From positions 1 through 28,340 of IMG/VR virus record IMGVR_UViG_3300011116_000688: a DNA stretch of 28,340 bases. The stretch is one strand, 5' to 3'. The position numbers and the translations under genes are program-made. Origin of the DNA: a virus. The notes under the pieces are model-generated. The model did not search any database and had not been told where the DNA came from. It saw only the letters and a program-made list of their open reading frames with translations. Numbering within the stretch: the stretch's first letter is position 1; each line of letters starts with the position of its first letter. This document shows, in pieces, positions 3,423 through 28,340 of this stretch.

Positions 3423-3737
3423 ATGAAAGGCTTTTCCCACTACACCTCACATCTTGCAGAACAGGGTGAGGCTCCTAAACCCCGTGGTGAATATTTTACC
3501 AGTCGTTTTAACATTAGCGGAAATGTTGTGAGTGCTGTGGCTGTGTACGAAACAACCACAAAAAATTACAAGAATAAAACTAAATTTTGGAGATGGCGTG
3601 TTCGTATAAAAACAAGTGAAGGTTGGATGCTGATGGGGTATATCGGCAAGAGCGAGCGGCAGGAAGAATTGCCCCCGCTTCGTGGGGGAGATGTTGTGGA
3701 GATCAGGGATCTTGTTCTGTCTAGGGTCACAGGGTGA
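3423..3737 (+). CDS. Capsid-targeting-like N terminus plus first copy of a duplicated domain (truncated by duplication)
   Basis: 104 aa. The N terminus MKGFSHYTSHLAE resembles the T4 internal-protein targeting peptide and carries a candidate L-A-E cleavage site at residues 11-13. Residues about 22-103 form a domain with several beta-like segments (NVVSAVAVYETT, FWRWRVRIKTSEGWMLMGYI, GDVVEIRDLVLSRVTG) that recalls OB or SH3-like folds; this is only an impression. The frame ends at TGA 3735-3737, exactly where a second copy of 3486-3732 begins one base out of frame. Without the duplication the gene would continue into the C terminus encoded at 3980-4092, giving an intact protein of roughly 140 aa. 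Function unknown. Confidence 0.7.
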   Translation: MKGFSHYTSHLAEQGEAPKPRGEYFTSRFNISGNVVSAVAVYETTTKNYKNKTKFWRWRVRIKTSEGWMLMGYIGKSERQEELPPLRGGDVVEIRDLVLSRVTG

Positions 3738-3979
3738 ATATTTTACCAGTCGTTTTAACATTAGCGGAAATGTTGTGAGTGCTGTGGCTGTGTACGAAAC
3801 CATCACAAAAAATTACGCGAATAAAACTAAATTTTGGAGATGGCGTGTTCGTATAAAAACAAGTGAAGGTTGGATGCTGATGGGGTATATCGGCAAGAGC
3901 GAACGGCAGGAGGAACTACCCCCGCTTCGTGTGGGAGATGTTGTAGAGATCAGGGATCTTGTTCTGTCCCGAGTCACAG
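3486..3979 (+). repeat. 247-bp tandem direct duplication (3486-3732 and 3733-3979)
   Basis: The block starting GGTGAATATTTTACC at 3486 recurs at 3733. The offset is a constant 247 nt up to the shared CACAGG (3728 and 3975), so there are no indels. I count 13 substitutions. Nine are synonymous when each copy is read in its own frame; the other four fall in three codons (T to I, K to A, G to V). Since 247 is 3n+1, the copies lie in different frames. Confidence 0.95.
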
Positions 3980-4092
3980 GAGGAGATTGGGCAGTAAGAA
4001 ACGCGGTAACAGGCAAACCCCTTGACTACCGTTCCAACTTGTTCTCTCGTCAACTACACGGCAAAATTAAAAGAGGTGCAACCCCTGTATGA
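3682..4092 (+). CDS. Second copy of the duplicated domain with the original C terminus
   Basis: The frame opens at a GTG (3682) or ATG (3691) inside the first copy, but those leading codons are out-of-frame first-copy sequence. The meaningful protein starts with the domain at 3733 (GEYFTSRFNISG) and ends with a tail absent from copy one (GDWAVRNAVTGKPLDYRSNL and a basic end). How it is translated is unclear: a poor internal start (GGGGGAG directly before ATG 3691), coupling to the TGA at 3735, or a +1 shift at GGG-TGA. Its codons show mainly synonymous differences from copy one, which argues that it is translated. The stop overlaps the next ATG (ATGA, 4089-4092). It could also be a remnant of a recently broken gene. 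Confidence 0.6.
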   Translation: MGEMLWRSGILFCLGSQGEYFTSRFNISGNVVSAVAVYETITKNYANKTKFWRWRVRIKTSEGWMLMGYIGKSERQEELPPLRVGDVVEIRDLVLSRVTGGDWAVRNAVTGKPLDYRSNLFSRQLHGKIKRGATPV

Positions 4093-25081: not shown

Positions 25082-25298
25082 ACTAAAACGATTCGCGTCT
25101 TTCATGGAACAGGAAGGTGGAGGCACAGGACTGCCAACTGGAGCACCCACAAACACCGTTGGCGGTGGAAAAATTGCAGGTTTGGGCAGCGATTTCCCTC
25201 CTGTGCCTGCCAAAAGACGGTTCAATATTTTAAAGAGGAAGACTGCCAAACTCATAAATAATAAGGTGATTGAAAACACTGATTCAGAAAGGAAGTGA
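25074..25298 (+). CDS. Small phage protein with APTNTVGGGKIAG motif
   Basis: 74 aa, with GGAGG at 25058-25062 in the end of the fibre gene. The start MRKLKRFASFMEQEG resembles the capsid leader (FxxF, F-M-E). It continues with TGAPTNTVGGGKIAGLGSDF and a basic tail RRFNILKRKTAKLINN. Short proteins with an N-terminal leader, PTNxxG and Pro-rich middle, and Lys-rich end recur in T4-like phages; their function is unknown to me. The gene's end contains an ATAAATA box for the following membrane-protein gene. Confidence 0.65.
   Translation: MRKLKRFASFMEQEGGGTGLPTGAPTNTVGGGKIAGLGSDFPPVPAKRRFNILKRKTAKLINNKVIENTDSERK
25254..25260 (+). promoter_or_regulatory. Late-promoter-like box ATAAATA
   Basis: Located inside the end of the 25074 gene, 43 nt before the ATG at 25304. 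It could give the putative lysis genes their own late transcript. Confidence 0.5.
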
Positions 25299-25303
25299 CT
25301 TAT

Positions 25304-25741
25304 ATGTTTAGTCCAGAACTCATATCATTGATTGGCGGCTCTGCAACAGGCTTCCTGTTCCGCTTCATGGCAGAGAAGCGTCAAGATCAAAAAGAAATGT
25401 TTGAACGCCTGATGGCTGCTAACAAGCAGACAACAGAGAATCAAGACAAGGCTGCGGAGCGTGTTCCACTGGATGTGGGCAAGGGTATCCGTCAACTCAT
25501 CGTGCTTGCAGTTCTGTTTGCCACCCTGCTTGCACCGTTCATTCTTCCGTTCTTTGGTCTACCCACTTTTGTAGAGGTTGACGCACAGACTCCTGAAGGC
25601 TTCTTCGGGCTGTTCCCTGCCACAACCAAGAAGTATTTCGTTGAAGTAAACGGCTTCCTGTTTGCTTCCGAAACTCGTCAAATTCTAGTGAGCATTGTCG
25701 GCTTCTACTTCGGTAGTGCTGCCGCTGCCAACAAGTCATAA
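25304..25741 (+). CDS. Three-helix membrane protein, candidate holin
   Basis: 145 aa from ATG 25304, with AGGAAG (25290-25295) 8 nt upstream; a GTG overlapping the previous stop is the alternative. Hydrophobic segments lie at about 5-21 (ELISLIGGSATGFLFRF), 64-88 (LIVLAVLFATLLAPFILPFF) and 123-140 (ILVSIVGFYFGSAAAA). An amphipathic charged helix (EKRQDQKEMFERLM) follows the first. Size and three-segment layout fit phage holins of the 3-TM type. It lies 9 nt before a lipoprotein gene that could be the spanin. No endolysin is next to it, so the lysis role is inferred. Confidence 0.65.
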   Translation: MFSPELISLIGGSATGFLFRFMAEKRQDQKEMFERLMAANKQTTENQDKAAERVPLDVGKGIRQLIVLAVLFATLLAPFILPFFGLPTFVEVDAQTPEGFFGLFPATTKKYFVEVNGFLFASETRQILVSIVGFYFGSAAAANKS

Positions 25742-25750
25742 GGAGTGCCC

Positions 25751-26059
25751 ATGAACAAGATTAAACTAATGCTTGCGTCTCTTTTGCTTGCGGGTTGCAG
25801 CACAGGCCCCGAAGTGATTCCTGACAACACTACTGATAGTGTGATTATGATGAAACTCAAGCACGAGATTCTTAACGGCGATCAGATCAGTCAGAACTGG
25901 GGATGGATTCTGTGGTATCTGCCTGTTCTGTTCCTAGTCCTTGCATGGGCTTGGAAAGAATTCATCAACAAGCCTCTACACCTTGACGACAAGGAAGACG
26001 CTGAGGCAGACAAATCAGAGACTACGGATATTACTCCGAAGCCTCCTGCTGCCCCTTGA
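25751..26059 (+). CDS. Lipoprotein with transmembrane helix, spanin-like
   Basis: 102 aa from ATG 25751; AGGAG at 25741-25745 lies 5 nt upstream. The signal peptide MNKIKLMLASLLLAGC has a clear lipobox (L-A-G-C) with the lipidated Cys at residue 16. Residues about 50-68 (WGWILWYLPVLFLVLAWAW) are a transmembrane helix, followed by an acidic tail. An outer-membrane lipoprotein anchored also in the inner membrane is the plan of unimolecular spanins such as T1 gp11. Here, however, the segment between anchors is only about 33 residues, short for crossing the periplasm. Its 3' end overlaps the convergent RuvC-like gene by 29 nt. Confidence 0.7.
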   Translation: MNKIKLMLASLLLAGCSTGPEVIPDNTTDSVIMMKLKHEILNGDQISQNWGWILWYLPVLFLVLAWAWKEFINKPLHLDDKEDAEADKSETTDITPKPPAAP

Positions 26060-26657: not shown

Positions 26658-26894
26658 ATGTTTCCAGGAATGATACCAACTGAACCAGCCAAGCAGGCTG
26701 AAAACTACAATGAAACCGTGCTGATCCCTCTGTTGGAGAAGCGAGTCCACAATCTGACTAGCAATCTGATTCTAGCCGAAGCCAAACTAGAGATTGCTCT
26801 CAAGGAAAAGGCAGAACTGCAAAAGCAGTTGGACGCAGCACAAGCGGCTGCAAAGCCTGTTGAGGTTGCTCCCGTCACCGAAGACGGGGCTTAA
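26658..26894 (+). CDS. Small coiled-coil protein
   Basis: 78 aa; AAAGGAGG ends 8 nt before the ATG. MFPGMIPTEPAKQAENYNET leads into a long heptad-like helix (about 22-65: LLEKRVHNLTSNLILAEAKL, then EKAELQKQLDAAQAA) and a short acidic tail. Its stop overlaps the stop of the minus-strand 26-aa frame. It probably oligomerises; function unknown. Confidence 0.65.
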   Translation: MFPGMIPTEPAKQAENYNETVLIPLLEKRVHNLTSNLILAEAKLEIALKEKAELQKQLDAAQAAAKPVEVAPVTEDGA

Positions 26895-26971
26895 AATCCC
26901 ATCAGGCGGGCTAGCAGTAGCCCCACACAAAAACTGATACCACACACTAGGGCTTTCTGAATCCTGTTCAT
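26891..26971 (-). CDS. 26-aa putative membrane peptide coupled to the serine protease
   Basis: Too short for usual gene calling. It begins MNRIQKALVCGISFCVGLLL and ends ARLMGF, one hydrophobic helix with a basic N terminus. Its ATG (26971-26969) overlaps the protease stop as ATGA, and GGAG lies 8 nt upstream inside the protease frame, so translational coupling is likely. Its stop meets the stop of the plus-strand 26658 gene. It may be a small membrane partner of the protease; function unknown. Confidence 0.5.
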   Translation of the reverse strand: MNRIQKALVCGISFCVGLLLARLMGF

Positions 26972-27744
26972 GGGGCTGTCTCCAATTGAACACCCGAAAG
27001 GTCTAGTGCTGTGTATTTGATCCAATCGGCTACCAAATCCAAACGGGTTGCTGAATTTTCAAACACTCTTCCATCGCAAATGGCTAGAGACGATACCACA
27101 CCAACAAGCACTCCTTTGGCATCAATGACTGCACCGCCTGAATCACCAAAAAATACTGTTGTTTCGTGCCTGTACATTTTGAAGCATGTGGGGTCTTCAA
27201 TCAGCGTTCCGTAATACGCAAACTCTCCCCATTTGCTGCGGCGTTTAAAATCGCCACCAAATCCTATCACGGTTAGCGGCTCGCCTCGTGAATACACATT
27301 GGTGTCGGGATTGAGCAAAGGGATAGGTGTGAACGGACAAGATGTTTCTAATATTGCAACGGCTACATCCATAAAAATGGTTTCACCCACCTTGAATTTG
27401 GGGTGCAACCTGTAGTCTGCAATTCTGTAATACTCGCATCCTGCCTTGAAGTGGGTCACATCCCCATCGTCTAGACAATGCCCTGCGGTAACAATAACAC
27501 GAGGTGCAATTAGAACGGCACTACCAATCTCACAGCCGTCTCGTGTAACCAATTCACCCACCGCAAGTTCTTCTGTATGCTCGTCCAGCAGGGAAAATCC
27601 ATCCATGAACCACGGGAGGGTTGTGACAGACTCCCCTGCTGGAGAATCCTGTGGTGTGTCGTATACCGACACCGATGCCTCGTCACATGCCCCGAAGAGT
27701 AGTGAGAGGGCGAGCAGAAGAGATGGAACATAGCCTCTCTGCAT
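26968..27744 (-). CDS. Trypsin-like serine protease, putative lipoprotein
   Basis: 258 aa. A signal peptide (MQRGYVPSLLLALSLLFGAC) ends in a lipobox-like FGAC with Cys 20, so the protein should be exported and lipid-anchored. The chymotrypsin-fold triad is complete: VTAGHC (His 89), MDVAVAIL (Asp 126) and FFGDSGGA (Ser 202). TVIGFGGD and VLVGVVSS (about 159-165 and 210-217) fit the family's strand motifs. Several Cys could form disulfides. Secreted trypsin-like proteases are rare in phages, so this looks like a host-derived moron. The start has no Shine-Dalgarno; CTAGATA ends 5 nt upstream. Likely roles are lysis, surface alteration or predation-type functions of the host; none is shown. Confidence 0.85.
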   Translation of the reverse strand: MQRGYVPSLLLALSLLFGACDEASVSVYDTPQDSPAGESVTTLPWFMDGFSLLDEHTEELAVGELVTRDGCEIGSAVLIAPRVIVTAGHCLDDGDVTHFKAGCEYYRIADYRLHPKFKVGETIFMDVAVAILETSCPFTPIPLLNPDTNVYSRGEPLTVIGFGGDFKRRSKWGEFAYYGTLIEDPTCFKMYRHETTVFFGDSGGAVIDAKGVLVGVVSSLAICDGRVFENSATRLDLVADWIKYTALDLSGVQLETAP

Positions 27745-27749
27745 ACAAA

Positions 27750-27756
27750 TATCTAG
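27750..27756 (-). promoter_or_regulatory. Variant late-promoter-like box CTAGATA, 5 nt before the protease ATG
   Basis: On the minus strand CTAGATA-TTTGT-ATG has the same spacing as the CTAAATA boxes at 4960, 16625 and 26615-26621. One base differs from the consensus, so this is weaker on its own. Confidence 0.35.
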
Positions 27757-27796
27757 CCCATCCCACCAAACAAAAATGTCTAGATTTCTAAAAGAA

Positions 27797-27818
27797 ACAA
27801 CCCCCTTTCGGGGGTTGT
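27797..27818 (-). terminator. Intrinsic terminator (minus strand)
   Basis: Minus-strand ACAACCCCC-GAAA-GGGGGTTGT is a 9-bp stem with a GAAA tetraloop, followed by TTTCTTTT. It ends transcription of the ribonucleotide reductase gene before the protease. A second small hairpin, GGAGAT-GCT-ATCTCC (27825-27839), lies between it and that gene. Confidence 0.85.
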
Positions 27819-27866
27819 CGGGCGGGAGATGCTATCTCCTGCGGGGCACAAGCCTGCGAAGTTTAT

Positions 27867-28340
27867 TTATCTCATAGTTGGAATGCTGTTGGTATTTTCT
27901 CCAATATCAACCAGTTCACAGGCTCCTGCGGAACATGCTAGACTCTGTGTTCCTGAAGTATTGTCAGTCTTTTCGTAATTTATCAGTTCAGACCAATCAA
28001 CATCCTTTGGCATCTTTGAAAGATGTGCTTCGTATTGTTCTTTGGTGCAGTCTTGATATGGTGCTTGCTTATAGGTTCCCAAATCCATCGGAAGGAAACT
28101 GATACCGCTGATTTCATCAAAGTGCTTGTACACCCACGCACCAACCTCCATCCACTCGTGCTCACGCACAGTCACGGTGATGCTGGGCTTGTGTTCGCAC
28201 CAGTGACGCTGATAGGTGAGCCACAACTCTAGATGCTCAATAGCAGTCATGTCGTTGCGGGTCACAGAACCCACAGCCTTCATGGGGAACGAGAACACCA
28301 TTGTGTGGTCAGGACGCATGTTGCACGGCTCGTGTGGGAA
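27867..28340 (-). CDS. Class II (adenosylcobalamin-dependent) ribonucleotide reductase, C-terminal part
   Basis: Partial: the frame is open to the window edge, continuing upstream of the first visible Met, and 157 residues are seen. MVFSFPMKAVGSVTR, SITVTVREHEWMEVG and ISFLPMDLGTYKQAPY are the C-terminal beta-barrel signatures of monomeric class II ribonucleoside-triphosphate reductase. The end holds CSAGAC, a C-x4-C pair placed like the thioredoxin-reducible cysteines of the Lactobacillus enzyme. The active-site cysteines and B12-contacting residues lie outside the window. The enzyme makes dNTPs for phage DNA synthesis without oxygen dependence but needs B12 from the host. A terminator follows downstream. 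Confidence 0.85.
   Translation of the reverse strand, partial: FPHEPCNMRPDHTMVFSFPMKAVGSVTRNDMTAIEHLELWLTYQRHWCEHKPSITVTVREHEWMEVGAWVYKHFDEISGISFLPMDLGTYKQAPYQDCTKEQYEAHLSKMPKDVDWSELINYEKTDNTSGTQSLACSAGACELVDIGENTNSIPTMR

Follow-up and report, generated by a model that had tools for sequence, protein, structure and literature searches.

S1-type serine proteases are already known from phages. The proteins annotated as protease in PHROG 9683 and the trypsin/HtrA-like proteases of Rhizobium phages P10VF, AF3, and RL38J1 are of this type, and they show weak sequence and structural similarity to the protease described here. That protease has the fold and catalytic triad of S1 proteases at large (Pfam Trypsin, PF00089, and Trypsin_2, PF13365) but differs from these chymotrypsin-fold enzymes in having no equivalent of Asp189, a lipoprotein anchor, and a coupled microprotein. 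A preliminary description of the locus had taken a triad protease with an export signal to be unusual in a phage; the trypsin fold as such is not, but the P10VF protein, unlike ours, has no lipobox and is not followed by a small hydrophobic frame. DegS and other membrane-tethered periplasmic S1 proteases (DegP-HtrA, MarP) may act alike, in that a trypsin-fold domain is tethered to the membrane on the extracytoplasmic side, but the protease described here carries a lipid anchor in place of a transmembrane anchor and has no PDZ domain. Its NCBIfam matches place it in neither the DegP/HtrA Do family nor MarP: they score far under the cut-offs (15 bits versus a cut-off of 250 for MarP), and there is no PDZ match.

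Phage-encoded envelope lipoproteins include the T5 Llp and Cor proteins, which are classical exclusion factors; these, unlike our protein, are not proteases, and no sequence relation to it was found. In Rz/Rz1, a lipoprotein gene overlaps the gene of a membrane protein, and spanins and holins are late envelope proteins; the pair of genes reported here recalls the Rz/Rz1 overlap but lacks the features of Rz/Rz1. In the open-access literature, we found no description of a phage-encoded exported or lipoprotein trypsin-like protease. Comparison with known anti-phage defense proteases (PADLOC) gave no whole-protein match, only protease-domain matches to RT-Protease_XI, LmuA, and Avs1b.

The window, by which we mean the whole stretch of DNA that was analyzed, is a 28,340-bp virus fragment (IMGVR_UViG_3300011116_000688). 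A 150-kb relative, the contig of locus L043, encodes a T4 gp17-like terminase with 55 to 58% identity to cyanophage and Methylophilales phage terminases, and the ribonucleotide reductase (RNR) from one related locus has its nearest relatives in Roseobacter phages. Judging by the gp17-type terminase, the carriers of the module are an uncultured lineage of T4-like phages, and this lineage is present in many metagenomes. The gene psbA was considered as a host marker and set aside, there being none in the 150-kb relative. Within the collections searched, the protease family occurs in uncultured phage contigs only. In cultured phages, tblastn queries consisting of the peptide, the window protease, and two diverged proteases gave either nothing or weak domain-level matches, and two scans of 84,980 genomes (one for the protease mature domain and one for the peptide) returned no bacterial relatives, a pattern-limited result in which absence is not proof.

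The protease gene (26968..27744, minus strand) encodes 258 amino acids. The protein begins with MQRGYVPSLLLALSLLFGAC(20)DE..., a signal sequence and the lipobox LFGA-C20, followed by the mature domain. It matches Trypsin_2 (E = 4.6e-15) and Trypsin (E = 7e-13), both beyond the curated cut-offs (57 bits versus 27.6 and 49.3 versus 20.6), and 23 of 23 homologues match as well. An AlphaFold2 model (pLDDT 74.8, pTM 0.75) has the chymotrypsin double-barrel fold and matches S1 proteases in the PDB with E values down to 9e-11 and TM scores of 0.5 to 0.6. The catalytic triad consists of H89 (TAGHC), D126 (FMDVAV), and S202 (GDSGG, G200-D-S202-G-G), and all three residues, together with the lipobox Cys20, are unchanged across the 23 homologues, down to 34% identity, which bears out the full triad and lipobox signal first read from the window by itself.

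The features of a bacterial-type lipoprotein are all present, namely, an MQR or MKR start, a hydrophobic run, and a cysteine that is invariant in the 23 homologues, and we infer export of the protease, lipidation at Cys20, and attachment to the membrane. The residue at position +2 after the lipidated cysteine varies among homologues (D, E, A, V, or Q), which rules out retention in the inner membrane through Asp at +2 as a general rule. The label trypsin-like, applied to the protein earlier, suits its fold and not its specificity. At the position equivalent to chymotrypsin 189, six residues before Ser202 (located by alignment, with unchanged spacing assumed), the protein has Thr196, and two homologues have His; Arg/Lys specificity of the trypsin type is unlikely because Thr, not Asp, occupies this position.

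The second gene (26891..26971, minus strand) encodes a predicted single-helix microprotein of 26 amino acids, MNRIQKALVCGISFCVGLLLARLMGF. It starts in the protease stop codon, its ATG and the protease TGA together forming ATGA, so that the two genes share 4 bases, and the interval 26891-27744 given for the locus at the outset spans both exactly. Inside the 3' end of the protease gene lies a Shine-Dalgarno sequence, GGAG (26980..26983, minus strand), with an 8-nt spacer to the microprotein ATG. Of 16 homologous microprotein genes, 13 match the Shine-Dalgarno sequence over 4 nt or more with suitable spacing, compared to 8.7% of random sites, and the match is kept despite differing protease C-terminal codons and residues beneath it. 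The microprotein has a core of 15 hydrophobic residues, ALVCGISFCVGLLLA, flanked by basic residues, in agreement with the single hydrophobic helix proposed earlier, and its charge distribution points to an N-in topology. One face of the helix presents S-x3-G-x3-A-x3-G (i, i+4, i+8, i+12), the same in all variants; small-residue faces of this kind are typical of helix packing. The C terminus, R-x-x-G-F/L, is short and hydrophobic and ends in F or L in every variant. Homologues range from 26 to 31 residues.

How faithfully the two genes stay together was assessed with several queries. A protease search of IMG/VR found 13 loci, of which 7 have a homologous small frame directly after the protease and 6 do not. 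These six (L007, L008, and L010-L013) form one clade, in which about 60 nt are deleted and the protease is intact and near-identical; no second copy of the peptide was found elsewhere in their contigs. Since the peptide is gone while the protease stays, the peptide is dispensable at least there. Querying with the mature domain, which gives the protease 3' end no preference, brought in two more loci, L035 and the deep relative L043 (50% identity), whose microprotein, MKCELTQTQRVLLGAISFCVGVLLARAVGL, is ATGA-coupled and clearly related to the window peptide. A search with the peptide only reached clades too diverged for the protease search and found 36 loci, with a protease immediately upstream in 36 of 36. 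At the protease-only loci L049-L052 the small frame is present too, though missed by the peptide search.

Both genes are thereby kept at 40 of 46 assessable protease loci, and the small frame starts exactly at -4 (xTGA, on the protease stop) in 36 of the 40; related metagenomes contributed many near-identical loci, so these counts do not represent independent events, and there are 17 distinct peptide sequences. The fair retention count is that of loci found without the peptide query, where both genes are present in 16 of 22. On these comparisons, the protease and the microprotein are a conserved, linked two-part module, and the keeping together of the pair through deep evolution marks it as a real two-part device. 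The preliminary description had proposed such a module and had named homologues without the small frame as evidence against it. The linkage and the export/lipid-anchor signal uphold the proposal, while the frameless homologues do exist, as a single clade of six contigs and not among the other assessable loci.

Over ten diverged copies of the peptide core, the pooled pN/pS was 0.32, with pS mostly 0.4 to 1.0 per site; by this measure the microprotein is under purifying selection. That the small frame is a spurious, untranslated one, conserved through an RNA or overlap effect, is very improbable: the frame is indeed missing in one clade, and constraint at the DNA level is seen at the locus, in the 5' portion of the protease coding sequence, but there are many synonymous changes under conserved amino acids, the Shine-Dalgarno sequence and start position are conserved, and the frame is kept beside proteases of only 34% identity. 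We regard it as established, from sequence comparison, that the overlooked 26-codon frame is a real gene. A selected microprotein family, unannotated until now and tied to a predicted membrane-anchored protease, is thus added to phage biology, and it illustrates that genes of fewer than 32 codons escape annotation despite good conservation.

The coupling of the genes and the C-terminal F or L of all variants raise the question of whether the microprotein acts as an inhibitor or immunity factor, restraining the protease until it is needed, with the C-terminal G-F/L of the peptide lying product-like in the S1 site; Thr in place of Asp at position 189 makes a hydrophobic P1 residue possible. We consider this quite unlikely, since in the deletion clade the protease is intact and near-identical although the peptide is gone, which is unexpected for an obligatory inhibitor.

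The module sits in a conserved gene order: RNR, protease, microprotein, and a RuvC-like gene. In the window, the conserved upstream neighbor is the C-terminal part of an adenosylcobalamin-type RNR gene (27867..28340, minus strand; phrog_367), which ends in a strong intrinsic terminator (27796..27819, minus strand) that divides RNR from the module and is conserved in homologues. At the related locus L046, the 3' part of the RNR gene contains an HNH-type homing-endonuclease-like ORF (1827-2411), whose end has an RNR-like tail, KVVDLTT. Downstream of the microprotein in the window is a convergent 78-aa ORF (26658..26894, plus strand); its stop codon and that of the microprotein overlap in the sequence TTAA. 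Such an ORF, of 78 to 87 aa, lies between the microprotein and RuvC in some clades and is absent there in others.

A late-promoter-like motif, CTAGATA (27750..27756, minus strand), begins exactly 12 nt before the protease ATG, and either CTAAATA or CTAGATA stands equally far from the ATG in relatives from both main clades. The late promoter of the T4-like phage Aeh1 has been described as CTAAATA, at -12 from the start site (PMC1524935). A T4-type late motif, CTA[AG]ATA, exactly 12 nt before an ATG predicts a leaderless late mRNA, and we predict from this arrangement that the protease is translated from such an mRNA and the microprotein through its own Shine-Dalgarno sequence and coupling. The window has seven CTAAATA sites (4960, 5907, 7481, 16625, 19203, and 26631 on the plus strand and 26621 on the minus strand), all 12 to 39 nt ahead of an ORF start on the same strand; the three that lie at exactly 12 nt suggest several leaderless late transcripts in the window phage.

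The 5' end of the protease gene is unusually constant. In clade 1, pS is 0.16 for the first 25 codons (0.00 for codons 13-24) versus 0.61 for the remainder, and in clade 2 the signal-peptide codons are likewise frozen. From the promoter to the lipobox (27670-27756 in the window), synonymous sites are nearly frozen per clade, as seen in the window with L003, L009, and L033-L035 and in L043, L065, L070, L085, and L049. The stretch does not appear to be a cassette common to unrelated genes, because a DNA scan found it only before this protease, and local RNA structure was also rejected, since folding of the window sequence did not outdo shuffled controls (z = -0.72) and the clades do not share the same predicted stems. 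The stretch may have a function at the DNA or RNA level or serve as a recombination handle.

The explanation we favor for the pair, to which we give about an even chance, is a late, translationally coupled two-gene module in which a tethered, envelope-cutting protease and its membrane partner help lysis and release. After export and lipidation at Cys20, a linker of some 22 residues would tether the protease to the membrane, and from there it would cut host envelope proteins. The microprotein would be made in proportion to the protease from one mRNA, and its one short N-in helix would pack through S-x3-G-x3-A-x3-G with itself or with a membrane target, setting the C terminus (R-x-x-G-F/L) next to the protease as a partner or regulator. 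Cutting of envelope proteins late in infection would then aid lysis and the release of progeny. That the two-part device acts on the host cell envelope late in infection is probable, and we infer a late, lysis-related use, which would make it a concrete envelope-targeting module in the uncultured T4-like lineage.

The main rival to a lysis use is receptor or superinfection control: receptor or injection proteins would be stripped off or disabled by the anchored protease, which would shut out sister phages or stop progeny from adsorbing again to the infected cell and its debris. Phage lipoproteins are classical exclusion factors, the export and anchor signals fit, and the divergence of the catalytic domains between clades (34 to 52% identity) would suit changing targets; cyanomyoviruses lack the r genes that serve superinfection and lysis inhibition in T4 (PMC2984593), which leaves room for another system. 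The late promoter motif, however, is later than usual for exclusion genes, and no homologue of a known exclusion protein was found, and we rate this reading as somewhat unlikely. A broader proposal, which we rate as less likely than not, is a new kind of phage device: a lipid-anchored protease, controlled by its own transmembrane partner of 26-31 aa from an overlapping gene and expressed from a leaderless late mRNA, would dismantle host envelope proteins for release or exclusion.

Alternatively, the microprotein could be a tiny holin- or pore-type peptide and the pair a lysis cassette that combines a membrane lesion with an envelope protease. The late motif and the one hydrophobic helix with its small-residue face would fit, as would weak matches to the holin family phrog_198 in 6 of 11 microprotein members and 0 of 10 shuffles, the microprotein being the sole phrog_198 match in contigs G001, G005, and G007. 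These matches, however, reach only E = 0.003 to 0.04 and cover one helix of a longer holin, none being a significant full-length match; the profile is promiscuous, with matches in 11 of 14 control genomes; the window peptide itself does not match; and the peptide is missing in one clade. We therefore consider a holin unlikely.

A few further features of the window and its relatives were noted. The 33-kb contig IMGVR_UViG_3300020183_000277 has two diverged protease-microprotein modules (L092 and L096) in opposite orientation, each with an RNR end and RuvC, from a duplication or a chimeric assembly. Elsewhere in the window, a multi-helix membrane protein (25295-25741, plus strand; phrog_38283, unknown) is followed by a short lipoprotein with a transmembrane helix (25745-26059, plus strand); these two genes turn up together in most of the clades encountered and are possible lysis or envelope genes. 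The adjacent window ORFs at 3423-3737 and 3682-4092 share a nearly identical segment of about 80 aa (GEYFTSRFNISGNVVSAVAVYET...), a tandem duplication.
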